NCBI RefSeq assembly: GCF_026151205.1
Contig: NC_087081.1
Location: 11,225,113 to 11,285,112 of the forward strand
Direction: 5' to 3'
Length of the DNA stretch: 60,000 nt
Source: Bolinopsis microptera
Taxonomy: Eukaryota; Ctenophora; Tentaculata; Lobata; Bolinopsidae
Positions 2,340-56,361 of the stretch are shown in pieces. Position 1 is the first letter of the stretch, and every line of letters begins with the position of its first letter. The notes beneath the pieces are model-generated. The model did no database searches, was not told the origin of the DNA, and saw nothing but the letters and a program-made list of their open reading frames with translations. The position numbers were made by a program, and so were the translations under genes.

Positions 2340-2535
2340 ATCGGGCCCTGACTTACTTGACTTAAGGCGGGTAGTATTCCCGAGATCCATTGACAACAGT
2401 TCTCCACAGCTTTCTGTCTTCCATCAGTCTAGCTATCTCATCTACTGACTTCAACCCATTATCTGCTTTTAGGTTATCTAGTAGTGTTAGAGTGAGGTCG
2501 CCCCCTGTTAGTATGCCCATGACTCGGCTTCCAGA

Positions 2536-17828: not shown

Positions 17829-19758
17829 ATGAACTACCACAGTAAACTTAGTAACACCAGCTCCGCTATCAACACCTGGAGTAAGAGAGACTTAACTCTG
17901 ATAGGAAAGTGTACAATTATTAAATCTCTTATTCTTTCCCAGTTCACTTACCTTATCATACCACTAGAAACTCCTGATACTAACACCATCAGTAAAATAG
18001 ACACTATGATATTTCACTTCTTGTGGGGTTGTAAGAGGGATAAGTTGAAACGTGATATTGTTACTTCTCCTCGTGAATGTGGGGGTCTAGGTCTCTTCTA
18101 TACTAACGATTTTATTATATGTTTAAAAGTGTCACTTATAGGAAAAGTTATCGATCCTAATTTCCAACATGCCTGGAAAAATATTATCATCAATCAGCTT
18201 TTACACCCAAATATACCAACTGTGTGTATAGAAAACTGTCTCACATTAAAGAATACTGGTTTTACCTTTAACCTTCTTCGCCATTATAAGCTTTGGAAGT
18301 CTATTTCTTCACAGTCAAGTAAGAGTACAGTCAACCACTGTGTGTGGGGAAGCGACGTAATAACGGACATTGGCTCCAAGCTCTGGAACGATATTCTTAT
18401 TGATAGAAATATCATCTATCTTTCTGATTTCGTTTCAGAGGAAGGTAACCTCTTAAGTTTTCAGCAATTTCTGAGAAAGTGGGGCCAAACAAGTAGTATA
18501 ATCTCTTCGACTCAATATGCGAGTATAAAATTGGGAATACGTCGATTTAATAATACCGATACGTTTACAAGTAACATTACATTTATCGATACCCAACTTT
18601 CACTTCGCTTTTGGGGAGGTAGGAATACCCCCAACTCTAGAGATACTCCTCTCACTATCAAAGGTAGAAACATTAGAGATACCATGTCTAAGCGTTTAGA
18701 TCCCAGCACCCTTCCTCCAATGAGGAACTGGAGTGCTAACCTCTCCTCAACGGATATTGATTGGATTAGTATTTTTACGGATATTTTTACTTCTTTCTCA
18801 AATAACTTCAAACTTATTCAGTACCAATATAAGCTCCTTCACCGGATTAGTACTTGTCGGTACATGAGATATAAAATGAAGATTGAAAAAGATAGTCCAA
18901 ATTGCTCGTTATGTAATCACAACCTCGAAACTATCTCTCACATATTTATTGACTGTCCAGCCACAAGCTCTTTCCTACAGGGAGTAAATCTGTTTATTAG
19001 ATCGAATATTGACGCAAATTATGACGACCCATATCGCCACTATTTGATTTGCTTAAATCACAGAGATAAAAGTGTTAACTTCGTAAATTCGGTTTGCTGT
19101 TGGTTTATTGGAAGGAGTTTCCAGAACAAGGAACCCCTATTCTGGGAGCGATATCTTAAACATCTTAAGCTTTTCTTATTAGGTGAAAAACCGGATATTA
19201 TACGGTGCCTTAAAGACGTTATACCTTGATGACCATTTTATACCCAAAGTACTGGATCCACTATACACTCTTGTTTATTTATTCTCTCGAAATTACAGCC
19301 GTGCCTTACCTTTACCCTTTATTTCACAAGTTGTAGCCAGTGGAGTTATCTCCACTACTAGTATTGATATAGAGTCACATTTAAAACCAGTAGTATCTCT
19401 CCTTTTTCTCTCCATCTTATGTGCTATTTATTACTCTATATCCACTGACTTTATTCGACGTATTATCTAAAAGAATAAAAAAAATTGTGTGCGTGTGTTT
19501 TTATATTTATTTTGCTACGGCGCATGTGAAACCCCAGGGCATCCAGCACCGGAGAAGCTGAAATGACACTCTCTGAACCCTTGGTGCCGCTCAGATTTTC
19601 CCTCTTGGCTGGTAAGCCGAGTCTTGATCGATTAACTTAGCTTCTTCGGTACAACACAGACCGGAGGGTACTATTAGCCGCTTTGCCGGTGGTATCCTCC
19701 TGGTGTCCTGGGGTTTGGCAGGTTCCTCATTAAAAAAAAAAAAAAAAAAAAAAAAAAA
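17829..19758 (+). mobile_element. 5'-truncated L1-like (L1/Tx1-type) LINE with poly(A) tail
   Basis: A 466-residue frame (17829-19229) begins in the post-RT region: WSKRDLTLIGKCTIIKSLIL, FHFLWGCKRDKLKRDI and SPRECGGLGL are typical of L1-group ORF2. It ends with a zf-RVT-like domain (FKLIQYQYKLLHRISTCRYM, then CSLCNHNLETISHIFIDCP). The RT itself is missing. A 3' UTR follows, ending in a run of 27 A (19732-19758), which marks the 3' end of a target-primed insertion. The upstream limit, near 17800, is not sharply defined. Confidence 0.82.
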
Positions 19759-21598
19759 TGCCAGGGCTGACTGCCCTGGCATGACCCCAAACTTTATGGA
19801 ATGGGTAACACCTAGTGAAGAGGAAAATGAACCTGGAGTAAACTACATGAACCTGAAAGCTCACAAACCAGAGAAAAACTACCCTGGGAGACTTATCAGC
19901 ACTGGATGTAACTCTTACATCAAGAACCTCTCAATATTCACAGCAGAAGAACTAAAGAAGGTAACCCTGCCCCATTGCCTCATGGATTCTAATGATCTAC
20001 TTATGAAGATGAAAGAACTCAATGAGTCAGGAAGATTGACTGGGAAGACCATCTACCACGTTACATTTGATATTGTAAACATGTTCCCCAGCATTTCAAA
20101 GGAGATTGGACTACCAGCCTGTAGAACCTTACTAGACCAAAGAAGTACTAAACTTTTCTCCACAGACTGCGTTATGGAAGCTTTGGAGATAACCCTGGAT
20201 AACAACATCACTGTTTTCAATGGCAACATGTATGTACAGACAAGTGGAACTGCGATGGGTCCAAATAATGCTTGCCAGTATGCAGACTCAGCTCTCAGCC
20301 CCTTGGACAGTAAGATCGTGGAGAGCCAAGAAATCACAACCCCTGAGTTCTATGGCAGATACCGTGACGACATATACATCACCTGGACTGAGTCACTGGA
20401 GAAGCTAGACCAGTTCCTACTTTGGCTCAATCAATACCATCCAAACCTCAAGTTTACAATGTCGACACCTTCTACAGAGGGGACTGAATTTCTAGACCTG
20501 TTTATTTACTCGAAAAATTGCAAGCTAGAAACTAGGACGTACTGCAAACCTAGTGATGCCCATAGCTATTTACTCCCACAATCCTGCCACCCTACACACA
20601 TAGCAGAGAATATTCCATATGGAGTAGCACACCGAGTGTTCAAAAACTGTTCAGAGGAAGAAGAGTATTTGAAATGTAAAATTGAATTTAGTGAATATCT
20701 AGAAGATAGGAATTACAATAAAGATCTTATCCATAAATCCTTTGAGAAAGTTGAGTTACTTAAACGGGATGATCTGATTTCAAAAAACCTTACAAGCTCT
20801 AATAGTAAGAAGAGTGAAAGATGTTTTCCTTTAGTTTGTGATTTTGACCCTAACTTACCTCCAATTGGTAAAATAGTTAACAAGAATAAATTTATCCTTG
20901 GCCTAGACCCCTTTTTAAAGTCTGTGATCCAGCCTAGCAAAGTATTTGTTTCATATCGTGGTAATAAAACTATCAAAGAAACTTTAGTTCCGAGTAAACT
21001 TTCAGAAGATCGTAAGTATCATGAAGATAGTAATGTTATAGCTTTAAACTCTAACACTGAAAATGTGGCTCTGCCTACTAGTATAGAAGAGGGGGGATGT
21101 TATCATTGTAACTCCAGATGTAAAGCCTGTAGAATGTATATTTGTGAATCAAAAACAGCTCAGAGCTACCACTCGGGGTACACTGTTAACATCATTGGAC
21201 AACTAGACTGCAACACAGTAGGGGTGTGCTATCTAGTAAGGGATAAAGTCTGCAGACGTGCTTCAGTAGGAAGCACAGTTAACAATTTTAAGACCAGATG
21301 GCAGAACCACAAATCACATATTAGGAAAGCGGTTAGGAGTTGTGAAATTTCTTGTCATTTTAACGATAACCAGTTCCATAATCTTACCAAAGAGCCCTTA
21401 AAAACGTTTGACACTGAGTTATCCGATCAGATAGAGGTTATTATTTTTGAAAAGCTAGATTTTATAAAATGTTTAACCTTAGAAGATAGAAGTAGGGTTG
21501 CTAAAGAAAGAGAATCATTTTGGCAAAACCAGCTTATGACCCTCAGTGATTTTGGAGGACTTAATAAACGTAGTGCTCTTAATGAAATAAAAAATTGA
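19759..21598 (+). mobile_element. Penelope-like element ORF (RT plus GIY-YIG), N-terminally truncated
   Basis: From the ATG at 19781 the frame gives 605 residues. RT motifs in order: PGRLISTGCNSYIKNL, HVTFDIVNMFPSIS (motif A), GTAMGPNNACQYADSAL (motif B), RYRDDIYITW (catalytic DD), LKFTMSTPSTEGTEFLDL, and KPSDAHSYLLP with SCHPTHIAENIPYG, which is characteristic of Penelope-like RTs. The C-terminus has a cysteine cluster (CYHCNSRCKACRMYIC) and a GIY-YIG-type nuclease (GVCYLVRD, RASVGSTVNNFKTRWQNHK, FWQNQL). The second YIG tyrosine is replaced (ASVG). The frame is continuous to the stop at 21598. The N-terminal region expected before the RT is missing. The element abuts the L1 poly(A) exactly, with a 23-base hairpin (tgccagggc/gccctggca) at the joint. 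Confidence 0.88.
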
Positions 21599-32596: not shown

Positions 32597-33506
32597 CAGG
32601 AGGTGACCGGGACATGATTTTAGGCCTGACCGGGACCGGGACCGGGATACGAAATGTGACTTGACCGGGACCGGGACCGGGACCGGGACCGGGACTGAGA
32701 TTATCAATTTACCATGACCGGGACCGGGACCAATAATTTCTGGGATTTCTATCTTACCGGGACCGGGACCAACAATCCAATTTTACCGGGATGACCGGGA
32801 TGACCGGGAATTGACCGGGATGACCAGGATTTGACCGGGATGACCGGGATTTGACCGTGATGACCGGGACCAAAACTGGTATTCTCATATTGAAAGCTGC
32901 AACTTTCATTTACATTATAATTGAAAAAAAAAAACCGTCAATATGGTGCATGGGCCCAATGTACTACACCAATAATGTTCATGTACTGATTACTCAAGTT
33001 CACCCTCATTCCTCATTCCTCGATCAATGATCCCTCAAATTATTCAACAGTTTCATTCTCCAATTCCAATTGACAATTGGGCGTAGCCCGAGTTGAAAAC
33101 TTGATGTTAGTTTGCACTTAAATGAGTTATGTAACGATATTAGTTACCTAAACTAGTAAACTTGTTTAGCAATTTTAAACATTGTTTTATTTGGCTCAGA
33201 GGTTGTTGAAAGATGAAATTCACAATGAATGAAAGTAAAAACTTAAAATCACAGTGAATGAAATAATGTAAAAGATCCCGGTCAAAATCCCGGCAAATTT
33301 GAGTGATTGACCGGGACCGGGACCGGGACTGGGACCAAGAATCCTGAATTAACCGGGACCGGGATCATAGATCAGCATTTGACCGGGACCGCGACCGGGA
33401 TGAAAAATTTGACTTGACCCGGTTGACCGGGATCGGACCGGAATAGCTGAAAATTGCCAATCCCAGTACCGGGATTCCCGGTACCGGGAATCCCGGTCAC
33501 CTCTTG
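32597..33506. mobile_element. hAT-like element made largely of gaccggga repeats
   Basis: Its ends are CAGGAGGTGACCGGGA and TCCCGGTCACCTCTTG (inverted, starting CA and ending TG). The flank tcagcaag is repeated exactly (32589-32596 and 33507-33514), the 8-bp hAT signature. Most of the interior is imperfect gaccggga/gggacc repetition at both ends, with about 400 bp of unique AT-rich DNA (32880-33270) in the middle. No transposase. Confidence 0.82.
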
Positions 33507-33514
33507 TCAGCAAG

Positions 33515-34225
33515 GGAACCCATTCTTTGCAATTAGCACTAACAATTGGGATGAAAAGGATATAAGCTGTGAAGGAAGCAGGGAATCGGTCATCCTTTCA
33601 GCAATGTGGATTTACGACTTTCAACAAATTATGGTATTTGCAAGCTGGGTGGCGTAATAGTAACACGATCTACCATGAGCTGTGTAGAATGTAATGGTCT
33701 ATTATAAGTCAGCAAGTTACCAAGCTGCAGATTGGTACAACTTCAGACTGTGATGCACACTCCCTACACCCTGGCTCGTATGAACAACCCCGTACAGCTA
33801 GTATACTACTGGTCCATTTCCACAGAGTGGGTTGCGGTTGCTCAAATGAGATAAGCACGACCTCAAGTAGTAAAGGGCAGGTTACCTCCCAACATCAGAA
33901 GAGATCTGCCCTTGAATTTTTGGTGTTGGCGGCATTCAAAGGCTAAAGCACTTAATGTAGAACACTACCCAAAACTAAGATGATTAAAAATAGAAAGTTC
34001 GTATAAAGATTGAGGAAATTCGGTATTAGCGCTCGATTTACAAAACGTGATTTACAATAAACGGATATGCGCGGCGTATTTGGTATTTTAACATTCTTTT
34101 TCCTTGTCGCAATAATATAAATATAATAGTATGAATGGATTGCTAAACAATTTTCAGCATGTTCATCTGCATCATCAAAATGCGACTAAAAATAATTTTC
34201 CTCGCCCCGGCCCTGATCTTTATAT
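33515..34225. other. Non-coding DNA
   Basis: No gene or clear repeat, apart from a fragment near 34095-34200 (ttccttgtcgcaa ... aaaatgcgactaa) that resembles the edges of the fold-back MITE at 15473. Confidence 0.5.
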
Positions 34226-34730
34226 TAGGTAGTGCGCCATCGAGAGTGAGCCGCGCGCGCCTACTGTAGGATGGTTTTTAGCGCTAATTTCGGCCAGCAC
34301 AATTTTCTTCAATATTCAAACAAATAGATATTAAATATACTTCCCGACCTCCGATTGCAACAAAAATTTGTAAGCTTACTAATAGATTTACAGTAACTCC
34401 GATATCCACCAAATTTTTCGGACAGTTCTGAAAGCCCTACTGGAAGGTTGTCGCCAATTTTAAGAATGATCTCATTCAACTTTCAAGGAACCGAAGATAT
34501 ATCCGAATAATACGACAAAAATCAACGAATTAGGTCAAATTACGCGACTTTTACAGCTAATTTTGCTCCAAAAGCCGCGCACTATCAAATATGGCACATA
34601 AGCGAAACTCACTGATTTTTTCAAAAAGGTATGACAAATTTGGTATTGTGCAGTGAAAATTCTCACAGTCTCTAGAAAACAATGGTACAAAAATTTTTAA
34701 AATCCGAGCAAGTTTATTTTTATTTTTTTT
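34226..34730. mobile_element. TAGG-family element, truncated at its right end
   Basis: It begins TAGGTAGTGCGCCATCG and follows the full copy at 46075-46670 through the tcacagtctctagaaaac segment to gagcaagtttatttttat. It lacks the last 17 or so bases, where the LINE begins. This fragment supplies the apparent ATG at 34682 of the following ORF. Confidence 0.75.
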
Positions 34731-35884
34731 TCAAACAAGAGAACGGTCACTCCGTCACTTCATTTGGCACCCCCTACCACTACATGGGATCTAAATCTTC
34801 AGAAAATGTGCCACCAATTCCTGAGGAACTCAAACCATTATTTGATGAAATGAATAAAGTACAAACTGAACTTTTTAACAAGAGCTACCCGGATCAGCCC
34901 CACCTGACGGCCCCGGTTATCAATTCATGTCTCATCAACAGATATGATGGCTCTGATAGTCACCTGCCTAACCATTCAGACCGTGAAGTGACCATCCATC
35001 CAGAATCATCAATACTTACCTTGTCTCTCGGCCAGATCTGCAACATCAAGTTCACTGAATGTGACTCTAGAACTGAATCCTCTCTTGAATGTCATGATCG
35101 CTCCCTGTACATAATGAGCCGTAGATCTCAAGAAGTTTACAGCCATATGATTGAGCGTGGCTCAATATCAGATGGTATTAGGTATTCGCTGACCTTTCGT
35201 GCTGTTAGCTGGACAAATAAAAATTGCACAAGTTTACATGGTGATTCAAACACAGGCTTCTTGCGTTTTGGGTCTGACAAGAGGGGTACCTTTGGCGAAC
35301 TCATGCCAGGTCAAAAGTTCTGGGCTCCCAGAATTGAAGATATCAACCCTGTGTCCTGCATGGGTTACGCCAATGTGGTGCTCCACTGTGGGATCAATGA
35401 CGTGAGACAGCCTGATATTAGTTGTGAGAATGATGTTGCTGATTGTTATAATAAACTCAAGCTGAAAATTAAACAAATTAAGAATCTTAGCCCCAGCACT
35501 AGAGCTGTTTTTGTTTGTAAACTGCTGCCTACTAAGGACTTAGAGCTGAATGTAAAAGTTAATGCATTTAATAGACTGATTCATTTCGACCTGCTCCCTA
35601 CATGTAAGGATGTCGTATGTGTTAAGGGTTTCGAAAAGTTTGCCTGCAACTATGGTCTTGCGGACGAACTGTCGAAACAATTCGACAGACATGGTCGACT
35701 TGATACACTTCATCTCAACAAGTTAGGGGCAAGAGTCCTTGCTGGACTCATTAAACAATCTGTATTTATTAGGTTAAATGGCGGAGAAGACAGAAGAAAA
35801 CACATCGGCAAAGTCAATGGACGGCTATACAGCAACGTGGCTAGTGACCCGCCTGCACCGCAGCGGAGGGGACGGAACGGTTAA
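34682..35884 (+). CDS. LINE ORF1: AlkB-like 2OG-Fe(II) dioxygenase fused to SGNH hydrolase
   Basis: The frame codes 400 residues, but the first 17 or so come from the upstream transposon, so the true N-terminus is lost. Residues 25-175 match the AlkB fold: FGTPYHYMG, PPIPEEL, SCLINRYDGSDSHLPNHSD with the HxD pair (H98, D100), SSILTLSLGQ, the second histidine in QEVYSHM (H155), and RYSLTFR (R167, R173) for 2-oxoglutarate. Residues 183-355 are an SGNH/GDSL hydrolase: HGDSNTG (S189), LHCGINDVR (N239) and DTLHLNKLG (D341, H344). The stop at 35882-35884 precedes the ORF2 start by five bases. SGNH domains are known in ORF1 of CR1/L2-type LINEs; the AlkB part is unusual. All catalytic residues are present, so either activity is possible. 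Confidence 0.85.
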   Translation: MVQKFLKSEQVYFYFFFKQENGHSVTSFGTPYHYMGSKSSENVPPIPEELKPLFDEMNKVQTELFNKSYPDQPHLTAPVINSCLINRYDGSDSHLPNHSDREVTIHPESSILTLSLGQICNIKFTECDSRTESSLECHDRSLYIMSRRSQEVYSHMIERGSISDGIRYSLTFRAVSWTNKNCTSLHGDSNTGFLRFGSDKRGTFGELMPGQKFWAPRIEDINPVSCMGYANVVLHCGINDVRQPDISCENDVADCYNKLKLKIKQIKNLSPSTRAVFVCKLLPTKDLELNVKVNAFNRLIHFDLLPTCKDVVCVKGFEKFACNYGLADELSKQFDRHGRLDTLHLNKLGARVLAGLIKQSVFIRLNGGEDRRKHIGKVNGRLYSNVASDPPAPQRRGRNG

Positions 35885-35889
35885 CAGGT

Positions 35890-38800
35890 ATGGTTAATCG
35901 TGTTCAAAAGGAAATTTGTAGTCACTGTCTGAAGAATATTGGATTAGGGCTTCCCCACTTTGAATGTTTTAACTGCAATAGTATTCTCCATGCCAAATGT
36001 TTTAATCCTTCCAAAGCGCAAGTTATCAATGAAAACTTTTACTGCAACGAGTGTAAACATTCCATATCTAAAAAATACAATCCTTTTAAAGTAATGACCG
36101 ATCCTGAAGTTAATGACTGTGACCCATGTATCCAAAAGATGTCCGATGCTTTGGAAAACTGTAGATCCTATACAATTAAGGACTTTAACACACATATCAA
36201 ACCTTGTTTTGCAAGCAACTGCTCCATGATTTTCCAGAACATAGATGGCAATAAAACAAATTTTGATGCCTTTAGCATGGAACTAAACCGATTAGCCGAA
36301 AAATTTAAAATTATTGGACTTGCTGAAACCAATATTGGAATAGAGGAAAGCACTGTTTACCATCTTGAGGGGTACAATTGTTTCTATCAGGATAAACATA
36401 TCAATAAAGCGAAGGGAAGTGGAGTAGCATTGTACTTAAAGGACGAACTTAATGGAGTTGTAAACGAAGAATTATCATGGGTAACCAAAAATCTTGAAAC
36501 CCTATTTATTACTATTCAACATGATGAACCTGTACATGTAGGAGTACTGTACCGTCCTCCTAGTGGGGACTCCTCAGAGGCACTAAATGAACTTAGAAAA
36601 ATTATTGAATCATGCCCAAAAAAGAATGCTTACATACTAGGTGACTTTAACATTAATCTACATGATGAAAACAGTAAACTTGTTCAAGACTTTGAAAACC
36701 TTATTCTAGGTCTAGGTTTATCACCACTTATTTCTACTTCCACGCATCATAAACCAGGATGTAACGAATCGTGTATTGACAACATACTCACCAACAACAT
36801 AGAAAACTCTATCTGCTCTGGAACAATTAGTACCTGCATCAGTCACCATCATGCTGTATTCCATATATTCAACTCACCCCTAGTCAGTACTGAGGTTCAT
36901 GAACAAAACTATTTCCAGTACTATGACTACTGTGCAAAAAATGTGGACAAATTTGTGGAAGTACTAGACAATGAATTAACTAGTGATCCACCAGAAGACT
37001 TCAGTAATTTTTTCACTGTATTTAATCATCAACTAGACAGTGCATGTAAACTAAGCCAGCCTAAGTGTTCTAAACGTACTGCTAAGAATAATCCATGGAT
37101 TACATCTGGCCTGATTGCCTCTATAAATAGAAAACATGAGCTTTATGACCTGTGGAAAAAGGCAGTTAAGAAGAAATGCCTCAACGCCTCTTCAACCAAC
37201 CATGCAGACTGTCTTACCCTTTGTTTTAATTGTACAAATAAAGTAACACGTCATGAAGAATTTAAGGCACACCGGAAGTTATTAAACCACCTTATTAATT
37301 CTGCAAAACGTAAGTATCATGGTGTTAAGATTACAGAATGCGCTGGAGATAGTAAGAAAACTTGGCAGATAATTAATGAACTGCGTGGTAAGAAGAGACG
37401 TGAGATTAAACCTAACTTTGTGATAAATAACGAGCGTGTGATTAATCGGCGTGTAATTGCAAATGAGTTCAATAAATACTTTGCCTCTATTGCAGCTAAC
37501 TTGAACGAAGCATACTCTGGTGACTTCTTAAGAATAAATTCCCTGCCGTCATTTACTGATTACCTGCCCACATCAGTTACGTCCAGTATTTTTCTTTGTG
37601 ATTGTGACTGTATTGAGATTAAAGAGATCATAAACGAACTAAAAAACGGGAAATCTAGTGACATACCTATTCATGTGATCAAGAAGTCGTGTCAAATTAC
37701 TGCACCGTACTTAGCTAGATACTTTAATAAATGCATGCAAGAAGGCCACTTTCCCGATGAATTAAAAACTGGGAGAATCAGCCCCATTTACAAAAAAGAA
37801 GATGAACAGCTTTTAGAAAACTATAGACCAGTATCAACTCTACCTGTATTCGGGAAAATTCTAGAAAAGTTAATATATAAGCGGCTCTATAGTTTCCTTA
37901 CTTCCAAGGGTATAATACATGAAAACCAGTTCGGCTTTAGAAAAGGACACTCCACCAGCCATGCACTGAACTACTCTGTAGAACATATAGAATCGTTAAT
38001 TAGTAAAAAGCAACATGTCCTAGGGGTCTTTATCGATCTCTCAAAAGCCTTTGACACTCTAGACCACTGTAAACTAACTACAAAATTAAACAACTATGGC
38101 ATAAGAGGAAATGCTCTGAATCTTATCTCTAGTTATTTGTCTAATAGGAAACAATTTGTAAACGTTTTGGATACCAAATCTGATGAATTACCGGTTGAAT
38201 TCGGGGTCCCTCAGGGTAGTGTATTAGGACCTCTACTTTTCCTACTGTACATCAATGACATATGCAATATAACTAAAAAGGGTAAATTTGTCTTATTTGC
38301 AGACGATACTAATATATTTGTCGCTGCCGATTCGAGAAATAAAGCATATGAATTGGCTAATGAAGTACTACAGGCCGTAAACAAGTATATGGGAGTTAAC
38401 CTACTGCACATTAATGTAAAGAAGTGTTGTTACATGTATTTTTCTCCCTCTAAACGTAATAATAACGAATTAGATGCCGATATAGATAGCCAAAACTTGT
38501 CCATTAATAACAAAATAATTAAACGTGTAAGTCAGACAAAGTTTCTCGGAGTAATCATGGATGATAAATTGAGCTGGAAACCACATATATCATCCCTCAA
38601 CAAGAAACTAAGAAGTGCTTGTGGACGTATCTACCGTATTAAGAAATGCTTACCAGAATCACTATATAAACAAATATATCATTCTCTCTTTGAATCACAC
38701 CTAGGTTATGCTATTTCTGTCTGGGGAGGTATTCCCAATAATCAGTTAAAACCACTATTTATTACTCAAAAGAAGTGTATCAGGATTCTATTTGGAGACT

Positions 38801-39234
38801 ATGAAGCTTATGTAGACAAATTCAAGACATGTGCTAGAGCAAGACCAATTAATTCTCAACGTCTAGGATCTGAATTCTATGTTAAAGAGTCCACTAAGCC
38901 TCTATTCACAAAACATGAATTACTTGTTACTGAGAACCTGTACCGATACCGTTGTTTAATGGAACTTTTTAAGATCATTAAGTCACGAGTACCAATTTCG
39001 TTATACTACTTATTCAACATATCAAATAGGAAAGATAATCTGTTCATTACACCCTCTCCAACTAATCAATTTATTTATAAATCTGCATGGCTGTGGAACG
39101 AATTCCGTAAAGTTGGCCCGTTAAATTTCACCTCCACATGCGGATCTGTCAAGAATTTACTTAAACAGTCACTTCTAAGAGCTCAAAACCGGTATGGAAC
39201 TGAGTGGTGTGACAGAAATTTCACTGAATTCTGA
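35890..39234 (+). CDS. LINE ORF2: PHD-type finger, APE endonuclease, reverse transcriptase (intact)
   Basis: It codes 1,114 residues without a break. Residues 9-57 form a C4HC3 finger (CSHC, CFNC, HAKC, CNEC). APE-type endonuclease motifs follow: FQNIDGNKTNFDAF, IIGLAETNIG, AYILGDFNINLHD, SCIDNILTNN and CISHHHAVFHIF, the last in place of the usual SDH. RT motifs: NYRPVSTLPVFGKILEKLIY, ENQFGFRKGHSTSHAL, GVFIDLSKAFDTLDH, GVPQGSVLGPLLFLLYIND and FVLFADDTNIFV (catalytic FADD). A CR1/L2-like C-terminus follows, with QTKFLGVIMDDKLSW and SVWGGIPNNQLKPL. The protein would nick and reverse-transcribe its own RNA. The long intact frame suggests recent activity. A second, broken copy lies at 41296-42887. 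Confidence 0.92.
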   Translation: MVNRVQKEICSHCLKNIGLGLPHFECFNCNSILHAKCFNPSKAQVINENFYCNECKHSISKKYNPFKVMTDPEVNDCDPCIQKMSDALENCRSYTIKDFNTHIKPCFASNCSMIFQNIDGNKTNFDAFSMELNRLAEKFKIIGLAETNIGIEESTVYHLEGYNCFYQDKHINKAKGSGVALYLKDELNGVVNEELSWVTKNLETLFITIQHDEPVHVGVLYRPPSGDSSEALNELRKIIESCPKKNAYILGDFNINLHDENSKLVQDFENLILGLGLSPLISTSTHHKPGCNESCIDNILTNNIENSICSGTISTCISHHHAVFHIFNSPLVSTEVHEQNYFQYYDYCAKNVDKFVEVLDNELTSDPPEDFSNFFTVFNHQLDSACKLSQPKCSKRTAKNNPWITSGLIASINRKHELYDLWKKAVKKKCLNASSTNHADCLTLCFNCTNKVTRHEEFKAHRKLLNHLINSAKRKYHGVKITECAGDSKKTWQIINELRGKKRREIKPNFVINNERVINRRVIANEFNKYFASIAANLNEAYSGDFLRINSLPSFTDYLPTSVTSSIFLCDCDCIEIKEIINELKNGKSSDIPIHVIKKSCQITAPYLARYFNKCMQEGHFPDELKTGRISPIYKKEDEQLLENYRPVSTLPVFGKILEKLIYKRLYSFLTSKGIIHENQFGFRKGHSTSHALNYSVEHIESLISKKQHVLGVFIDLSKAFDTLDHCKLTTKLNNYGIRGNALNLISSYLSNRKQFVNVLDTKSDELPVEFGVPQGSVLGPLLFLLYINDICNITKKGKFVLFADDTNIFVAADSRNKAYELANEVLQAVNKYMGVNLLHINVKKCCYMYFSPSKRNNNELDADIDSQNLSINNKIIKRVSQTKFLGVIMDDKLSWKPHISSLNKKLRSACGRIYRIKKCLPESLYKQIYHSLFESHLGYAISVWGGIPNNQLKPLFITQKKCIRILFGDYEAYVDKFKTCARARPINSQRLGSEFYVKESTKPLFTKHELLVTENLYRYRCLMELFKIIKSRVPISLYYLFNISNRKDNLFITPSPTNQFIYKSAWLWNEFRKVGPLNFTSTCGSVKNLLKQSLLRAQNRYGTEWCDRNFTEF

Positions 39235-39389
39235 TTATGAAGTGATATTCATTTGCCTGTTATTCCCACTTAAGCACTTACTGACTGACAAGCTTATCTA
39301 TGAATACCATGCTTGAATTTAGGTAAACAACATACAACTCATTTCCAAGTTACGCTGAGCGCAACCGCCGAATGACTCAGCAATATTGA

Positions 39390-39434
39390 AACGCGCGCGC
39401 ATAGCATTGCGCGCCGATGCTATGCGCGCGCGTT
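39390..39434. repeat. GC-rich hairpin with CG-alternating arms
   Basis: Arms AACGCGCGCGCATAGCAT and its exact complement are separated by tgcgcgccg. The alternating purine-pyrimidine arms could adopt Z-DNA or a cruciform. Confidence 0.8.
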
Positions 39435-41295
39435 GTCGGCCGAAACTTGGGAAGTTCCCGCTCTAATATTCAGACGACAGTGATGACTCATTAAGAGCAC
39501 TAATTTCGACCACTTTCCCGGTCGAACCATACCAAATCAAACTAATTGACCCACGTGTATAGCCAATGTCCTGGCGGTGCTGAGCCGATGTAAAACTCTT
39601 CTGTAAACTCTTTTGTCTCTTGTAACTTGTTTATATTTCATATTTTAGTTATACTGTGTACTGTGTACAATAGTTATAGCGTATAGTGTGTGTAGTGTGT
39701 AGTGGTTATTTTGTTGTGACGTGTCACTTTATACTTTGCTACCAACGTCAGCCTTGACTTACCATTTATTGTAATTGGTACAGCATATATCAAAACTAAA
39801 ACACTGTTTTCGATCTGACGGGTGATGGGCTCTCTCTGATGGGACACAGTTCTAGGGGGTACCCGGGGTACGAGTTAACGAATAGTGTTCGTGTCCTTCC
39901 ACAATCCCCTCTCATTGTGTTTTTGACGGAGGAGAAGCCTAGTTCATCCGTCTGCATCGCTTAATCGAGTTGAAAATTTAGCCAATAACAAACTAAATTA
40001 CATGTTAGACTGATAGCAGGTGTAGAGTTTATAACATACAAATTCTAAATTTTTGACGGCTGACGATGGTAAGTCGCTACGTTTAATTCGGGACTTTTAT
40101 AGTCTTAAGTCTTGGAGCTCAAAATGTCTCGTGCTGTGGGCCGTATAAACGGCGCACACCACCGCCCCGCCTTACTTCACGGTTGCGGGGCGGAGCTGGT
40201 GCCGTTTGTCTCGGCCTCAAGTGGCGAGTGCTTGCCCATCGAATACACGATTGAAACACTAATTATTTATTGGAATTCTACAGTTTCCAAAACGAAGTAC
40301 GAAGATATATTAACTTTGAGCTTTGTTTTGGCGACTGCTTCATCGATGGGCGAGTAGGTATTTGTTGTTTAGCAGTGTTGAATATTGGAGCAATTATATA
40401 ATGTATATCTCCATCATAATATAGGCTAGTGTAAAGATATATAATCAAGAATACAAACAAACGCGATGTTATTTAAACACATATGTTTACGTCAATTATT
40501 ACTAAAATTAATATTCTTTTTGCTTTGATATAATTACATGTCACATGGATTAATGGATTAGTTGAATGAAACGTGTGCTACAAATGTCTACGCCTCACGC
40601 AGAACTGCGTACCGCTCAGTACTAATTCATGCTTGAGCGGTACTGCTGTTCACAGTGGCGCGCACTCAATTTAATCACAATAAATAACGAGCGCGCGGTT
40701 TTTTGGAATCTCTCCATTATTATATTAATTAGATCGCAGTGCTCACGGCCTGTACTGAGTAAACGACAGAAATATCTTTTAAATTATTTTGCTTCTGAAA
40801 TTTTGGCTCTAGTAATTAAGAAATGTGACATGTAATTGTAAGTTAACAATTAAATAGATCCTGTGCGCGGCGCCTACAGCTGACCTACGAATTTCTGAAC
40901 AATTTTAAATTTTGGCTGTGTGCGCGGCGTACTGTATATGGGTTTGAAATTGAAATTTGAATTTATTTATGAATATAACATTATGTATTGATTATTTGTG
41001 GTAAATAAAAATTTTTCTTTCCTAAAAAAATTTTTCTTTCCTATCGTGCACTGCACCCCTATTTATATTATATTGATTGTTACCTAGTTAAATGAAGAAA
41101 CAAAAATGGTCAGACAGTCTTTAATTTTAGTTAATCCTATTTTTATTTAAATGTACAATCAAATATTACAAACAAATTTGGAGGACTTTCAACTTCGCCG
41201 CTTGGACGCGCCGCGCAAACTAAGTAAAACTAAATTTAAGTAAAACAAAATTTAAGTAGATCAAAATTTGAATAGATCAAAAATACCGCTGATAT
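39435..41295. other. Non-coding DNA
   Basis: No gene supported. Seen: a GC-rich patch (40120-40240, cgccccgcc ... gcggggcgg inverted pair), a hairpin acgcagaactgcgt near 40598, a doubled aaaaatttttctttcct (41010-41043) and degenerate aagtaaaac repeats near 41220-41280. I could not recognise a tRNA or SINE in the GC-rich patch. Confidence 0.5.
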
Positions 41296-41377: not shown

Positions 41378-41537
41378 CGTTACCTGGGGACCTCAGGCTA
41401 TTATGTTCATTCACATAGCCATGTATATACGCGTACGGCGGTCGCGCGCTACTGCAAGCGAGAGGGCTCTGGTTAGAGCAATTATGTTCATAAACATAGA
41501 GATTTGGCGGAATGACAGGCTGAGCGCGGCCCAGTAA
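41378..41537 (+). mobile_element. MITE of the TTACTGGG family, copy 3, inside the LINE
   Basis: It begins TTACCTGGGG and ends GGCCCAGTAA, with flank tgtgtccg repeated (41370-41377 and 41538-41545). Removing it rejoins the SGNH coding frame (NILCP then LLPTK). It is 160 bp, longer in the middle than copies 1 and 2. Confidence 0.85.
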
Positions 41538-41757
41538 TGTGTCCGCTGCTGCCGACCAAACTCGTTGAGCTAAATCGTAAAGTTGTACATTATAATGAAT
41601 TAACTTTTAAGGAGCTGCTCCATTCCAACTTTGGTGTGAATTTGGTACCTGGTTTTGACATGTTCTGTGATGAGGCTGGGCTCCTAAGTCAGCAATTCTC
41701 TAGGAACATTGGACGAAACCAGAAACCGGACTATTTACACCTCAATTGGAGTGGTAC

Positions 41758-42346
41758 TAGGCGGTGCACGATAAAAATAAACTTGCTCGGATTTTCAAAA
41801 TTTGTGTACCATCGTTTTCTAGAGACTGTGAGAATTTTCACAGTACCAAATTTATCATACCTTTTTGGAATGATCATTGAGTTTCGCCTAGGTGCCATAT
41901 TTGATGGTGCGCGGCTTTTGGAGCAAAATTAGGTGTAAAAGTCGCGTAATTTGACGAAATTCGTTGATTTTTGTCGTATTATTTTGTCATATCTTCAGTT
42001 CCTGAACATGAATCATGCTGAAAATTTGTCAGAACCTTCCAATCATACTTAACTACCGAACCTAATTTAGTTGGGAGAGATTGGCCTTGATTAAGAGGTC
42101 TAAAAATGACAAAATAGGTATAAATTCGTTGATAACTCAAATTCTGAGCATCGAAATTGCTCAAACTAAATTAGGTTCCGTAGAACATAAGTGTTTACGT
42201 AAGCTGACCAAATTTCAACAAAATTGTTATATGGGAAGTATTATAACTTTTCGATTGTTTCCAAAATAATGTGCTGGCCGAAATAAGAGCTAAAAAACCA
42301 TTCAATGGTCAGCGCGCGCGTCTTATTGTCGATGGCGCACTGCCTA
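41758..42346 (-). mobile_element. TAGG-family element, full copy, inside the LINE
   Basis: Its ends are TAGGCGGTGCACGAT and GATGGCGCACTGCCTA. The flank gtggtac is repeated (41751-41757 and 42347-42353). Its body is the reverse complement of 46075-46670. No transposase. Confidence 0.85.
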
Positions 42347-46074: not shown

Positions 46075-46670
46075 TAGGTAGTGCGCCATCGACAGTGAGC
46101 CGCGCGTGCCGACTGTAGGATGGTTTTTTAGCGCTAATTTCGGCCAGCACAATTTTCTTCGAACAAATAGATATTGAGTATCCTTCCCGACCTTCAATTG
46201 CAACAAAAATTGGTAAGCTTACTCATAGACTTACAAGGAAAGTGTCCGAAAAATGTAAAGCATATCCAACCATCAAACATTATGTTACAGCTAAAAGCAG
46301 TGTATTTTGCCCCATTTTAATCACTATATCAACTCCGATATCCACCAAATTTTTCGGACAGTTGTGAAAGCCCTATTGAAAGGTCGTCGCTAATTTTCAG
46401 AATGATCTCATTTAAGGAACTGAAGATAAATCCGAATAATACGACAAAAATGGTCAAATTTGGACGAATTTGGTCAAATTACGCGACTTTTACAGCTAAT
46501 TTTGCTCCAAAAGCCGCGCACCATCAAATATGGCACCTAGGCGAAACTCACTGATCTTTCCAAAAAGGTATGACAAATTTGGTATTGTGAAAATTCTCAC
46601 AGTCTCTAGAAAACAGTGGTACAAAAATTTTAAAAATCCGAGCAAGTTTATTTTTATCGTGCACCTCCTA
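46075..46670 (+). mobile_element. TAGG-family element, full copy, nested in the fold-back arm
   Basis: Its ends are TAGGTAGTGCGCCATCG and CGTGCACCTCCTA. The flank ataatac is repeated (46068-46074 and 46671-46677). The left arm of the fold-back element (near 43485) preserves the empty site with a single ataatac, proving a 7-bp target duplication. It is 596 bp and non-coding. Confidence 0.88.
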
Positions 46671-50770: not shown

Positions 50771-51980
50771 TTATTCATACTTCCCAGTGGAGTAAAGATT
50801 TATAAAACGTTTCTTTGCTACATAAGGATGGAACCACAGATAATCATTGTGTTTTTCCTTATTACTGATATAACTGGTACCTTCAATTCTTGTTAAAACT
50901 TCTTTCGAAACATTCCAAAAATGAAATTCATTTACAATACATTTAGAAATCATATTCTTTTTAAAACTTTCCAATCCAATTTTAAAACTCAAAACTGTCA
51001 AGCAGTTCTTCACCTCCGAAGGGAGTTTGTTCCAATAAGGAACAACCCGCTCTGGAAGAAAAGAACACTGAAGATTCTTGACCTTTGTCACACTCTTACT
51101 ACATCTATTGGATGAAACCAGATTAAGACCTGATCTGCTTGGTCTGAACAAGTCTGAACCATAATCAGTCAAGCCATTAATAACCTTAAAAGCTTCAATA
51201 AGGTCCCCACGTATTCGCCGCTCTGCCAGCGTTGTCAAATTAAGGATTTCCAGTCTACGGCTGTAAGGAAGAGTACCCACCTCATCAATCAGACGGGTAA
51301 ACCGCCTCTGGACGCTCTCCAGCTCCAAAACAGTCCCCCAACTTCCATGAGCCGCAACTGGATTCCACAATTGGACACAATACTCTAGATGAGGTCTTAT
51401 CAAAGCTTTATAGATGGCTATCATTACACATTTTTCTCTAATTATCAAATTCCTTACAATCCAGCAAATCATTCGATTTGCCTTGGAAATACATGCTTTT
51501 ATCTGTTCATTCCAAAGCAGGGAGCTATGGGTAATAACCCCCAAATCTTTTTCCTGATCAGATACTTCAAGTTCTACGCCATTTACTAAATAATTTAAGT
51601 TAGGGTTGCTATTAAGATTAATATGAACAACTTTACATTTAGCAGGATTAAACTTCAAAAGCCAAATACTCTCCCAGACTTCCAGTTCTACAATATCTTC
51701 AGCAACACTGCTGTGGTTAGCTGCATTACCAATCAACTTGAGGTCATCTGCAAATAATTTAATCTTATTCTTGACTATATCAGGTAAATCATTAATATAA
51801 AGAATAAATAGCAAAGGACCCAATACTGACCCCTGGGGAACACCAGATAACACGTGTTTCACCTCAGACCATTGTCCTTCTACACAAACCCTCATGGTTC
51901 TGTCTGTAAGAAAATCTTTAATAACATCTAAAACTCTTCCTTTGACCCCAAACCCCTCCAATTTAGATAAAAGTCTAAAG

Positions 51981-52841
51981 TAGTAGAGGCTCTTACGGGC
52001 AAAAAGACGTGTTTTCTGCTACGAGTTTAGAGACCTAACCGCTAATTGGACACAATAGTATGATGTCTAAGGATCGATAATATGTTAAGAAGTATAAATT
52101 TGGCCTTATTAGTCACGTGCTATACCAATGCGCGTTTTAAACTTTGACAGTCTATTACTCTAAGGCAAATAAAGTAATTATATCCATATTTTGTCAGCAA
52201 TAAGATCACATTATTTTCTATTTAGTGTGAAAATATGAGCTAGAACGGACATAATCTCGCTGAGTTATAGCTGTTTGAAATTTATGATGAACGCGCGGGT
52301 GCCAATTGATAACAACTAAATGCTTTTGCGCGTAGTGCGCGTCGAAAATTTGGCAAAAACGCTTGCGGAGTGACAATATTCAAACTTCGATTAAGTATAT
52401 GAAGTGGGTACTTCTCGGAAAGGAAAAATTTAGGCAAACACGATGTGACTATTTTTGGGTTGATTTAATACAACTGCAAAAAATTATTCAAACTTAAAGC
52501 AAAAAAGTCAAAATTTTTACCACTTTTTTGGATTTTTACCTCAGAACAAATAGAGGGATTTGTTTTATTTTTATACAATCTTGTGCGGCTGTCTTTTAGC
52601 TATCTTTATGCAAGTTTTGCCGACATGCCAACAAAATTAACTTGCTCAAAATATCAAAAAACATGGTTTTTTGGCCTATTTTTGGCCCAAAAATCGGTTT
52701 TTTGCGATTTTACCCCAGAACAATCAGTCCAATCATCTTGAAACCACTTTCAATCGATTCTACGGTCAAAAATACGTCTAGTAAAGTGTATCTGGGGTCC
52801 CTAACGTATCGAGCAGACAATGCCCGTAAGAGCCTCTACTA
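51981..52841 (-). mobile_element. 861-bp TIR element (TAGTAGAGG family), copy 2
   Basis: It has the same 861-bp length as copy 1, in the opposite orientation. The flank aag is repeated (51978-51980 and 52842-52844). Wherever compared, the bases are the same as those of copy 1. It interrupts the RT just after motif A (KAFDTVPH). Confidence 0.9.
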
Positions 52842-53102
52842 AAGTGGGGGACAGTGTCAAAGGCCTTACTAAAATCAAAATACAGTAGATCAACAGAATC
52901 ACCTTCATCTAAAATATCAAGAATATTATCAAATGTCTCTAAAAGATTAGATAAGCAAGATTTGCCCTTAACAAATCCATGCTGATGCTTTGATATTCGT
53001 TCTTCTAAAAAATCCAATAAATGTGCCCTCACCAACTTTTCGTACACTTTGCACAAAATACAAGTTAAGGAAACTGGTCTATAGTTTAAGGGATCTGATT
53101 TA

Positions 53103-53946
53103 GGCAGTATCGAGATAGCCCGACCACTGGTCCGCGGACCACTGTCTGCGGACCACTGTCCGCGGACCACTGTCTACCAGATCATATTACTGTATAATAA
53201 CAGTATCCCCTGAATCAAGCAGGGTTCACATCATCCCCTGAATCAAGCAGGGTTCACATCATCGCACGCGAATTCCAATCAGCGGTGGTGTCAAGGCTTA
53301 TTAAACGATTAAGCAACCTTACGAGATCAGTTCACATCATGCAATATATAAAGAATAACTATTATCAGACTGCATCAATCATTTCTATCATCAACTCCTT
53401 CTTGAACAACTACAACTATAGTCTCAGAGAAAATATCTTCCAGTCAGACACCGCGTTTTCAGAAAGTCCAGTCATCTGTGATACCGCAATGCCAGCTAGT
53501 CCTTTTATACTCAAACAGAACAGCAGTTGTATGAAGGTCTTGAGAGCGAGCTTCTGTCCAGAGAGGATGCTGTCTGTTCTAATATTCTTGTACTTCTTGC
53601 AGGGGGAGCAGCGCCATATCAGTCCATCTGGAGACTTCGAGGACGAGCAGGGAACCAGGGACATAGATGCATTACACCCAGGACAGGACATGGAGCTCTC
53701 CAGTAATTTACTACGCTACAATTAATTATGCTAGTCGTAACTAATTGCATCCAAGATACCATACATACCATTCATATGATCTGGTAACCAATCAACTATT
53801 CACAAACACCTGTTGCTTGATTCAGGGGATACTGTTATTATACAGTATTATGATCTGGTAGACAGTGGTCCGCAGACAGTGGTCCGCAGACAGTGGTCCG
53901 CGGACAGTGGTCCGCGGACCAGTGGTCGGGCTATCTCGATACTGCC
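53103..53946 (-). mobile_element. Merlin-like DNA transposon, truncated transposase
   Basis: Its ends are GGCAGTATCGAGATAGCCCG and the complement, within arms of about 115 bp that contain tandem ggaccactgtc(t/c)gc units. The flank ctgattta is repeated (53095-53102 and 53947-53954). Merlin elements have 8-9 bp duplications and GG-starting ends. The left arm has a 26-bp direct repeat (catcccctgaatcaagcagg). The internal protein is described separately. Confidence 0.85.
53416..53691 (-). pseudogene. Merlin (IS1016/ISXO2-like) transposase N-terminal part
   Basis: The 91-residue frame has a zinc ribbon (MSCPGCNASM, WRCSPCKKYKNIRT), then DSILSGQKLALKTFIQLLFC and a helix-turn-helix (VSQMTGLSENAVSDWKIF). 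This is the N-terminal half of ISXO2-like/Merlin transposases. The catalytic DDE part is missing, so this copy is non-autonomous. Confidence 0.8.
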
Positions 53947-55530
53947 CTGATTTAACACCCTTTTTAAACAATGCTACAACGGATGCTGACTTCCACACCT
54001 CAGGAAGAGATCCCGTTTCTGAACACATTTTAAATAATTTAGAGACTGCTTCTACAAAGTTGTCATCATAAGCTAACGATTTTAATAACTTTGGATGAAC
54101 ACCATCCGGACCTGAACTCTTAAAAATATTAAGCTTTAAAAGTTGCTTCTTAATATCAGCACTGCTAACTTGCAAATCACTAATAACATCTTTATCATAA
54201 TCCAAAGTGTCATTTTTAGGAAGAGGGCCAGGTGGCTCACACACAAACACTGAGCTGAAGGCACTTGCAAGTACCTCAGCTGACTCAGATGAACTATTTG
54301 TGCGTGTACCATCTCCTCTATCTAAAGAAACAACACTTGATTTCACTTGACGTTTATTACGCAAATACGAGTAAAAAGATTTACAATTCTGTTTTAAATT
54401 AGATGTAATCTTCTTTTCATAATTTACTTTAGCTTTAATCTCTGCCACCTCAAAATTATGCTGCTTGCTATTTGCACAGCTCAAGTTAATATAAGAAGGA
54501 TTAATATCAAATTCAGCCCATGCTCTGTCCTTGTTCTTCCTCATTCTTTTAAGTGCAGTTGTACTCCATGGCAACTTGACAGGTCTGTTGTCGAGATAAA
54601 CCGAAGCAGCTGGGACAGCTGCAGCAACAGACTCCAATTTACTATGTAGTTCAACCCACATATCTTGAACATTATTTTTACAACTATAATCCCAGTCAAT
54701 ATTATTCATACTAAAGTTAAATAACTCTTCTGAGGAAATCTTACCCCAAATAGGCTTTAAAATCTTTTGTTTGGGACTTTTGTTAGTATTGGGCGAAACA
54801 ACCAGTTCGACAAGTATCCCAACATGATCACTTTTGCCAAGCGGAGAAACGATCTTACAACCGTTGACAAGAGCATCATTTGTATACAAAACCTGATCAA
54901 GAAGACTCTCCTGGAGAGTATCTTTCACAAGCCGTCTTCTGGTTGTTTCGTTGGTAAAGTACCATGTTAAACCACTGTCATTAAAAATATCCATATACTT
55001 CTGTTGAGTAGTTAAAAATTGATTTCTACTAAAGATATTATTATTTACACTTCCATTTACCCATGATACAGTAGGTAAATTAAAATCTCCTATAAGGATT
55101 GCTTCAGAATTGTTCTTTTCACTACATATACCCTTGATACAAGATAGTAATGTATTGTTCTGTTTTAAATTTAAAGAAGTTGATCTATAAATACAACAAA
55201 TAGTAATCAATCCACCAGATGTGTTAATACTAACAGCTAAAGAGTCTGGTGCACTTAAAAAAGAGCTTACTAAAGAAGCATTACAACTGTTCTTGATATA
55301 AATGATAGAACCACCACCCCCACTTATAATATTGGTTGAATTGTCAATCTTAAAATCTCTATCCTTTCTAAACATAGTAAAACCTTCAATAAAAATTTCA
55401 GCATCTAATATGTCACTACTAAAATGAGTTTCTGTTATGCAAATCACATCAATAGATTTATATACTGGTAAAATACATTTAAGTTCATCAATTTTATTAA
55501 AAAGTCCATTAGCATTGGTGTAAAATATAT

Positions 55531-56361
55531 TTAAGCCTTTACTGATTCTCCTTTCGTCTTTTCCAACCTGTTCTTCTCTGCTTCCAACTGTCTCTTCTTC
55601 CTCTCCTTTCTGGCTAAAAAATGGATCTCGCGGTCTGATCTACACTGGTCTTGATTGATCCAGTAGGACGATTCCTTCCAGCCTTTACCAAAGTCAGAGT
55701 AAAAATTAACTGACTCTTCGTCGACTGTCTGTATGATGAGAGGTCGACAGTAGTCATGGTTGTTTGGATCAACTTTTCCAGCACGATGGCAGCTAACAAT
55801 GTCGTCTTTCTTCATCTTGAGTGTTTCTACGCAGAAAGAGACATCATCCTTCTGACGCTGCTTAGGGTTCTTCTCCTTACTCTCAGGAACCTTCAGAACA
55901 CATAAGTTATGTTTCCTTCTGTTCCTTTCAAATGCATCAGTGTGCATCTTGGACTGCACTTTAGCAATAACATTTTCTGATGACTGGGAGTTGCTCAGAT
56001 CTTCTATTACTGTCCTCTGAGATTTTGCTGTAATTTCTGAGTAAAGTTGCACAGCTTTGTTGACAGTTTTATCTGTGCTTCCTTTAATAGCTTCCTTAAT
56101 CGAGTTAGTCAGGGCTGGGGTCAAATGTTGGAGTTCCTCTTTAATAATAGCCCTGACAGCCCCGTTTTCCTTAGTGTCAGCTGAGGTATGAGGCGCCACA
56201 AAACAGTGTGGGCACTTCCAGTTTGTTAGATTCAGTAACATCTCGTTTTTAAGGCCAGATAAACCAACACAACTCAGGTGCCAAAATAATTGGCAAGCTT
56301 CACATTCAACTGATAGTTCTTCTGACATGTAAACATCAAATGCATAACACAAAACACACAT
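55531..56361 (-). CDS. LINE ORF1: PHD-type finger plus RNA-binding-like domain
   Basis: It codes 276 residues. Residues 2-56 form a zinc finger (CVLC, CEAC, HLSC, CPHC: C4HC3). The middle is helical and charged (ELQHLTPALTNSIKEAIKG). Residues about 145-250 resemble the RRM-like domain of LINE ORF1 proteins (RKHNLCVLKVPESKEKN, DDIVSCHRAGKV, RPLIIQTVDEESVNFY). A basic tail follows (KERKKRQLEAEKNRLEKTK). The stop overlaps the ORF2 frame, which is open from about 55550 in another phase, so ORF2 would need reinitiation or frameshifting. It belongs to the LINE running down to 50771 and would bind its RNA. Confidence 0.85.
   Translation of the reverse strand: MCVLCYAFDVYMSEELSVECEACQLFWHLSCVGLSGLKNEMLLNLTNWKCPHCFVAPHTSADTKENGAVRAIIKEELQHLTPALTNSIKEAIKGSTDKTVNKAVQLYSEITAKSQRTVIEDLSNSQSSENVIAKVQSKMHTDAFERNRRKHNLCVLKVPESKEKNPKQRQKDDVSFCVETLKMKKDDIVSCHRAGKVDPNNHDYCRPLIIQTVDEESVNFYSDFGKGWKESSYWINQDQCRSDREIHFLARKERKKRQLEAEKNRLEKTKGESVKA

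Follow-up and report, generated by a model that had tools for sequence, protein, structure and literature searches.

A 60,000-nucleotide stretch of the genome of the ctenophore Bolinopsis microptera (assembly GCF_026151205.1, contig NC_087081.1, positions 11,225,113 to 11,285,112), referred to here as the window and numbered from its first nucleotide, contains a recent 5'-truncated copy of a family of long interspersed nuclear elements (LINEs), that is, retrotransposons without long terminal repeats (LTRs). The first open reading frame (ORF1) of this family carries an ALKBH2/3-like Fe(II)/2-oxoglutarate (2OG) dioxygenase domain fused to an SGNH hydrolase domain, and the fusion is real. The sequence and the predicted fold of this putative enzyme support a dealkylase identity, as do the conservation of its catalytic residues and the purifying selection on it. 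In the ORF analysis of the window, a single frame of 400 amino acids (34682..35884, like all parts of the element on the plus strand) ends in a TAA stop and covers the C-terminal ~385 residues of ORF1, with the AlkB domain first and the SGNH domain behind it. Five bases, CAGGT (35885..35889), separate its stop from the ATG of ORF2, which is intact and encodes 1,114 amino acids (35890..39234). The first-pass annotation, made from the sequence alone, had described this arrangement with complete catalytic sets in both domains, and it was confirmed, except that the frame is not the whole ORF1.

The AlkB-like domain occupies residues 17-175 (34730..35206), as assigned by a Pfam model, a family profile and the predicted fold. 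The model PF13532 (2OG-FeII_Oxy_2) matches the window frame alone at residues 30-173 with an E-value (E) of 1.3e-16 and 61.9 bits against a cut-off of 31.2, and it exceeds its cut-off in every one of the 10 family ORF1s that were scanned. When the family profile was compared with the PDB, ALKBH3 (1.7e-22) and ALKBH2 (5.8e-22) were the best matches, followed by ALKBH8, Escherichia coli AlkB and ALKBH6; the absence of other ALKBH types from the profile and fold match lists is not evidence against those types. The AlphaFold model of the window frame, built on a 25-row alignment, has two domains (predicted local distance difference test, pLDDT, 84.3; predicted template modelling score 0.82), and the predicted fold of residues 1-177 matches ALKBH2 (3bty; Z 19.1, 160 residues, 2.1 Å) and ALKBH3 (8jnk; Z 19.0, 159 residues, 2.0 Å).

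The catalytic set of the window domain is complete and consists of the iron ligands and acidic residue of the motif H98-x-D100-x-E102 (34973..34987), the distal iron ligand H155 and the arginines R167 and R173 (the last three at 35144..35200). All six residues are present in 40 of 41 element-borne AlkB domains (35/36, and 5/5 added later); D100, E102, H155, R167 and R173 are kept in 41/41 and H98 in 40/41, counts that include near-copies and hence are not 41 independent observations. Position 88, which together with N86 we take to be a 2OG-contact pair, is Y or F in 36/36 rows, and Y88 is kept in the 5 later ones. The acidic residue of the HxDxE motif aligns with that of ALKBH2/3 (HSDDE/HRDDE in ALKBH3 and ALKBH2, HSDxE in the family), and an acidic residue at this position presumably favours N1-methyladenine (m1A) or N3-methylcytosine (m3C) over N6-methyladenine (m6A) as substrate. 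As judged from sequence, the HSDxE pattern and the nearest relatives, ALKBH3 and ALKBH2, would favour m1A/m3C-type groups over m6A. An element-borne demethylase directed at m1A/m6A-type marks had been proposed at first pass; the dealkylase is supported, while of the marks it is m1A, with m3C, that is favoured over m6A.

The SGNH domain (residues 180-374; 35219..35803) contains all of blocks I, II, III and V, with D188-S189, G237/N239 and D341/H344 in the GDS, GxND and DxxH motifs. By sequence alone it is weak: the profile search that bore out the AlkB half of the first-pass annotation far above chance gave PF13472 an E of 0.053 over residues 210-351, its 14.4 bits falling short of the cut-off of 32.9; among 10 family ORF1s, 7 had a GDSL match at E <=0.1, the best at 6e-6 and always below the cut-off. 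The family profile matches SGNH structures 2hsj (1.3e-7) and 4c1b, the ZfL2-1 esterase (3.4e-5), and model residues 179-363 have a predicted fold like that of the SGNH sialate esterase 7pzh (Z 18.2, 164 residues, 2.0 Å) and the platelet-activating factor acetylhydrolase 1bwp (Z 16.4, 164 residues, 2.3 Å). The motifs, the family profile and the predicted fold are the grounds for assigning this half of the window frame as a predicted SGNH domain. Among 39 SGNH rows, the serine is present in 36 of the 36 that cover its site, the histidine in 38/38 and the aspartate in 36/38.

Comparison of the DNA with loci L009 and L054 placed the breakpoint of the window copy at 34726. The element-derived part runs from there to ~41043, instead of 34682-39234 as annotated at first, and the apparent ATG with the first ~15 codons (34682..34725) lies in flanking DNA without a match to full-length copies. 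We therefore rejected the window frame as a complete ORF1: similarity starts at 34726, and the copy lacks ~343 N-terminal residues, namely a PHD finger and a helical region. From the breakpoint on, the window is 99.3% identical to the full-length copy L009 (5 mismatches and 1 gap opening in 5,674 columns), and the insertion is therefore recent. ORF2 begins with a C1/PHD-like zinc finger (35905..36057; PF00130 E 0.001 and PF00628 E 0.013, both below cut-off), followed by an APE-type endonuclease domain (36238..36858; PF14529 E 7.5e-8, above cut-off, and PF03372 E 6.2e-5, just below) and a reverse transcriptase (RT) domain (37792..38556; PF00078 E 2.3e-38). The long 3' untranslated region (UTR; 39235..41043) is common to L009/L054 and partly to L010/L055; by eye it ends in short tandem repeats, at ~41043, where similarity to L054, the continuation of L009, stops. 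The endonuclease and RT in ORF2 and the 5'-truncated copies with shared 3' ends mark the family as a LINE, and no LTRs were found: the longest direct repeat in 33000-41000 is 30 nt (among the 20 largest of 38 repeat families). What suggests the CR1/L2 lineage (Jockey superfamily) is only the PHD and esterase ORF1s reported for CR1/L2 elements in the available text of PMC4120745, where the first-pass statement on CR1/L2 esterases also finds its source. The 3' UTR additionally holds a perfect 18-bp GC-rich inverted repeat with a 9-base loop (39390-39434), nearly unchanged in L010. An SGNH-domain fragment resembling that of L023, seen by eye and without a Pfam match, lies just downstream of the element (41537-41770), and an unrelated interspersed repeat occurs at least three times in the window (34456-34723, 41771-42041 and 46331-46657) as well as at the start of the fetched locus L009.

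A protein search of the same genome (264.65 Mb, 232 contigs) returned, from 927 first-look candidates, 104 ORF1 matches, so that there are at least 104, on all of the apparently chromosome-sized contigs C1-C13 and many in long open frames. Most start at query residue 15-18, many within frames of 640-750 amino acids, and 101 of the 104 listed matches have no internal stop; the best candidates were scored first, which biases this count towards intact copies. The full-length ORF1 of L009 has 728 residues and comprises a PHD finger, a helical region, a proline-rich linker, AlkB and SGNH. Its PHD finger matches Pfam at E 5.4e-4, below the cut-off, and the family profile matches the BPTF PHD finger at 8.2e-5; a PHD match was found at E 0.1 in 7 of 10 family ORF1s scanned, always below the cut-off. 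Helices are predicted at 131-280, with a pLDDT of 66.5 for the whole-protein model and mostly 45-70 in the helical stretch, and the coiled coil is putative. No RRM or CCHC match was obtained at E 0.1 in the ORF1s scanned. The first-pass annotation had asked for other copies with both domains in one ORF, and these exist: 14 rows align through both domains (the window, L009 and 12 long ORF1s that share 37-70% identity with L009), and both are kept in all fetched subfamilies, down to ~45% identity. In 9 of 27 loci (L014, L015, L017, L018, L020, L021, L023, L024 and L041) the stop of ORF1 and an ATG share bases in an ATGA, a sequence arrangement that suggests coupled translation of ORF2 by termination-reinitiation. 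At L052 (90-2435, minus strand), a truncated ORF1 with the end of AlkB and SGNH lies in frame with upstream RT-like sequence recognised by eye; this 782-residue frame is a chimaera formed by 5' truncation.

The AlkB domain is under purifying selection. By the Nei-Gojobori method, 6 of 12 pairs had a usable synonymous divergence (dS 0.04-0.96), and in these the ratio of nonsynonymous to synonymous divergence (dN/dS) was 0.090-0.168: 0.090 for L009/L010 (dS 0.06), 0.142 for L009/L011 (0.35), 0.139 for L014/L015 (0.21), 0.168 for L019/L020 (0.96), 0.135 for L023/L024 (0.04) and 0.119 for L023/L049 (0.30). The SGNH domain gave 0.105-0.273 in the same six pairs, except L023/L049, which is saturated. 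The proportion of synonymous differences (pS) shifts abruptly along ORF1. From the PHD finger through the helical region and AlkB to SGNH it is 0.76, 0.71, 0.28 and 0.21 in L009/L011 and 0.03, 0.07, 0.25 and 0.80 in L023/L049, which suggests that subfamilies may have exchanged parts by recombination or template switching, an exchange that would agree with the domain shuffling put forward in the available text of PMC4120745.

Full-length copies lacking AlkB would have spoken against the fusion as a family trait, as noted at first pass. The RT search (109 matches scored of 6,660 candidates) gave, by eye, ~26 loci with an ORF2 frame of at least 1,000 residues and no ORF1 match, and upstream DNA was opened for nine of them. 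In eight (L045, L046, L047, L048 and L050-L053) the 5' truncation falls inside ORF1 or just before it, and the ninth, L049, is a full-length copy that has AlkB. Thus none of the nine opened loci has an AlkB-less full ORF1; L051 also contains the ORF1 of another AlkB-SGNH element. Outside the family, a broken LINE in the window (50771-56361, minus strand) has a PHD-finger ORF1 without AlkB or SGNH match, and L070 has a helical region and SGNH with no AlkB in that frame.

The pairing of AlkB and SGNH is not confined to this family: sequence comparison shows it also in other types of LINE and in a Helitron. A genome search with PF13532 gave 151 matches (150 scored of 587 candidates), of which 20 places were fetched. 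Three of them (L025, L026, L027) are host-gene-like, and the other 17 combine AlkB with SGNH-like sequence in several arrangements: PHD-helical-AlkB-SGNH in L031, L038, L039 and L041; helical-AlkB-SGNH without a PHD match in L028 (in two frames), L030, L040, L042, L043 and L044; AlkB-linker-SGNH-like in L033, L035 and L036, tentatively labelled RTE-like by eye, where SGNH is recognised by motifs and by neither Pfam nor our own profile; and SGNH-proline-rich-AlkB in L029, L032, L034 and L037 (the last in two frames). A GDSL match at E <=0.1 was present in 6 of the 8 of these loci scanned with Pfam, the exceptions being L038 and L033. Less circular is the sampling with PF13472 (150 scored of 425 candidates), from which six loci were opened, chosen for differing frame lengths. 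Five of the six carry AlkB upstream by our own profile (E 2e-16 to 2e-25), L070 being the exception, and PF13532 itself matches only the close relatives L066 and L067. Our AlkB and SGNH profiles were built from one alignment and match its rows by construction; L029, L032-L037 and L065-L070 lie outside it.

The RT tree, built from 20 rows, puts 14 into the window's group (97/99), besides which there are the groups L059+L061 and L058+L060 and the distant L056 behind the L033 ORF1. The frame of L016 bears an RT that groups with L058+L060, probably a nested insertion, and further endonuclease-RT sequence was recognised by eye in L071 and L072 (behind L065 and L069). L034 continues by coordinates into L057, where one frame of 3,388 residues (L034:5383-9900 and L057:1-5646) encodes SGNH, a proline-rich stretch, AlkB and a Helitron Rep-helicase (Helitron_like_N 8.7e-23 and PIF1 helicase 5.4e-22, tested in L057 alone), with the order SGNH-AlkB reversed relative to the LINEs. 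By eye, L029 also ends in L057-type Helitron sequence. In the AlkB tree, 26 element rows are separated from 3 host-like rows by a weak branch (84/75), another branch, supported at 98/95, has L033/L035 on its host side, and one clade of the 22 other LINE AlkB rows without the Helitron was not rejected (approximately unbiased test, p-AU 0.29). Near-copies and duplicates (L010, L016, L019, L021, L022, L024, L028, L029, L032 and L036) were omitted from the tree, and in one analysis L043 and L025 as well. A single capture of AlkB is compatible with these trees but is not shown by them, and their long branches make placements unsure. AlkB and RT groupings agree broadly, and the AlkB domain has therefore been long kept. 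Possible ribosome-skipping sites may occur in some of these loci: by eye, a 2A-like motif, DVETNPGP, lies in the frame that immediately precedes the Helitron one (L034:4735-5235), and motifs ending in NPGP follow hydrophobic stretches near the ORF2 start in L071:2-1681 and L072:10-2733. At L027, a probable host AlkB gene (655-1542) is followed 0.7 kb downstream on the same strand by an SGNH-like frame (2254-3000), which could be a domesticated or ancestral AlkB/SGNH gene.

ORF1 proteins assemble element RNA into a ribonucleoprotein particle (RNP), PHD fingers read histone tails, and m1A and m3C are obstacles to both Watson-Crick pairing and reverse transcription. On this background we infer, for enzyme activity, substrate, oligomerisation and every step of the cycle alike, how the protein might work; that it is a dealkylase packaged in the RNP, where it frees element RNA or cDNA of m1A/m3C-type blocks, seems to us an even bet. 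The ORF1 protein would oligomerise via its helical region and coat the element RNA, the SGNH domain would give the lipid or membrane function proposed for other esterase ORF1 proteins, and through its PHD finger the particle may attach to histone tails. Since AlkB is fused in one polypeptide with these parts, it would be placed in the RNP and held on the template, where it could oxidatively strip N1-methyladenine- or N3-methylcytosine-type groups from RNA or nascent cDNA, removing groups that otherwise block reverse transcription; because such groups block both pairing and reverse transcription, an element-borne AlkB would bring a direct benefit. Several observations weigh against the RNP-packaged dealkylase. 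L016 has Q in place of H98 and thus lacks the first iron ligand, and N86 is present in 32/36 rows and in 0/5 of the later ones. The aspartate of DxxH is missing in the SGNH domains of L042 and L043, and the SGNH rows of L028, L030, L040 and L044 have no clear GDS; since some SGNH domains lack catalytic motifs, retention of a domain is no proof of catalysis. AlkB divergence is saturated in 4 of the 12 pairs (L009/L012, L011/L012, L017/L018, L013/L015), and two near-identical pairs are little informative (window/L009, with a dN/dS of 0.55 on very few changes, and L020/L021, undefined). L1 is favoured by m6A in human cells, where ALKBH5 acts as a suppressor of the element (PMC7873242, in its available text), and erasing a mark is therefore not always good for a LINE. 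The main tension is the Helitron, which misfits a benefit for reverse transcription alone and favours broader removal of methyl groups from element nucleic acid.

Helitrons are DNA transposons and make no use of reverse transcription. AlkB with SGNH in such an element, where template unblocking would not apply, is one ground for thinking that the domain instead removes a regulatory mark of the host, either m6A in RNA or 6-methyladenine (6mA) in DNA, and so helps the element to escape silencing. Another is the orchid Ty3/Gypsy AlkB ORF, for which in vitro m6A demethylase activity was reported and silencing escape proposed (available text of PMC9289625). We nevertheless regard mark erasure as rather unlikely, given that the profile finds its closest solved relatives in ALKBH3 and ALKBH2 and that the acidic HxDxE residue is kept in 41/41 domains; an AlkB entry with m6A is, by its PDB title (4nig), a D135I/E136H mutant. 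A non-catalytic AlkB fold that serves as a nucleic-acid-binding or structural module in place of RRM/CCHC would suit the lack of RRM or CCHC matches, as ORF1 proteins are expected to bind RNA; such a module would be expected to lose its catalytic residues, and the iron ligands and arginines are kept in 40/41 domains, in families down to 22% identity to the window, which makes this quite improbable. Action on a protein or another substrate, or hydroxylation of a host factor, is more doubtful still: 2OG oxygenases are diverse in substrate, and the PHD finger of the same protein (profile matches, with all Pfam matches below cut-off) could bring the domain to histones, but the best matches are the nucleic-acid enzymes ALKBH3 and ALKBH2, then ALKBH8 and E. 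coli AlkB. A chance fusion or an assembly artefact at one locus, to which the foreign start codon of the window copy might have pointed, is practically negligible and was rejected on the PF13532 score, the 104 listed ORF1 matches on all of C1-C13 and the long open frames of other copies.

Among LINE ORF1 proteins, RNA chaperones, carriers of a PHD finger and esterases are known. A catalogue of ORF1 domains in 448 Jockey-superfamily elements (PMC4120745) lists RRM, CCHC, CTD, PHD, esterase and zinc finger/leucine zipper, names no dioxygenase in its available text, and reports esterase ORF1s in two vertebrate groups only. The family studied here resembles the type IV (esterase) ORF1 of CR1/L2 elements such as ZfL2-1, in which a helical or coiled-coil region and SGNH lie upstream of an APE-RT ORF2 (PMC3905857 and PMC4120745, in their available parts), and differs in adding AlkB between helical region and SGNH and a PHD finger at the N-terminus; as type IV denotes a coiled coil with SGNH and no other enzyme, the presence of AlkB sets the family apart. 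Its N-terminal PHD finger recalls the type III (PHD) ORF1 of CR1/L2 elements, which is described without an enzyme domain in the same partial text; a targeting role of PHD in ORF1 is suggested there, and a PHD at the probable ORF2 start is noted in one L2 subgroup (PMC4120745). Phalaenopsis orchid Ty3/Gypsy elements likewise encode an AlkB-family oxygenase; these are LTR elements in which AlkB has an ORF to itself and is most similar to RNA m6A demethylases of plants and humans (available text of PMC9289625), in contrast to the LINE ORF1 fusion with SGNH, whose nearest solved relatives are ALKBH3/2. AlkB domains also occur in plant RNA viruses. In flexi- and closteroviruses, AlkB lies within the replication protein of an RNA replicon and has a similar predicted fold, joined to replicase parts and not to SGNH or RT (PMC544882 and PMC9289625, as far as their available text goes). 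Human ALKBH2 and ALKBH3 share the fold (predicted here), iron ligands, arginines and HxDxE-type motif; they are stand-alone enzymes with ~20-23% identity to the window domain. No report of AlkB in a LINE or Helitron was found among the top-ranked titles and abstract starts of open-licence PMC papers, a scope outside which Repbase and most subscription papers lie. We rate the AlkB-SGNH fusion as a new ORF1 architecture of LINEs, with element-encoded AlkB already known in Gypsy elements and viruses.

Elsewhere in the window, two further frames stand out. One (6236-8752, minus strand) contains low-density lipoprotein receptor class A repeats and, by eye, an apparent seven-transmembrane receptor start, and the other (19703-21598, plus strand) is by eye Penelope-like, with a weak sub-threshold GIY-YIG match (E 0.0097).

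The AlkB+SGNH module may have spread within this one animal genome, in differing domain orders, to a Helitron and to no fewer than four, probably five, types of LINE, in an arms race over nucleic-acid methylation: the host would mark or damage the nucleic acid of mobile elements with methyl groups, which element-borne erasers would have to remove. This we consider a speculative and unlikely extension. That the two domains come together in a Helitron as well as in distant LINEs hints that these elements face a common pressure in this host. If the conserved ORF1 dealkylase is true, base methylation of the template RNA or cDNA would be a selective problem for LINEs, and a limit set on retrotransposition by m1A/m3C (or m6A) would become directly testable. 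A self-dealkylating retrotransposon RNP could also help where modified RNA blocks reverse transcription.

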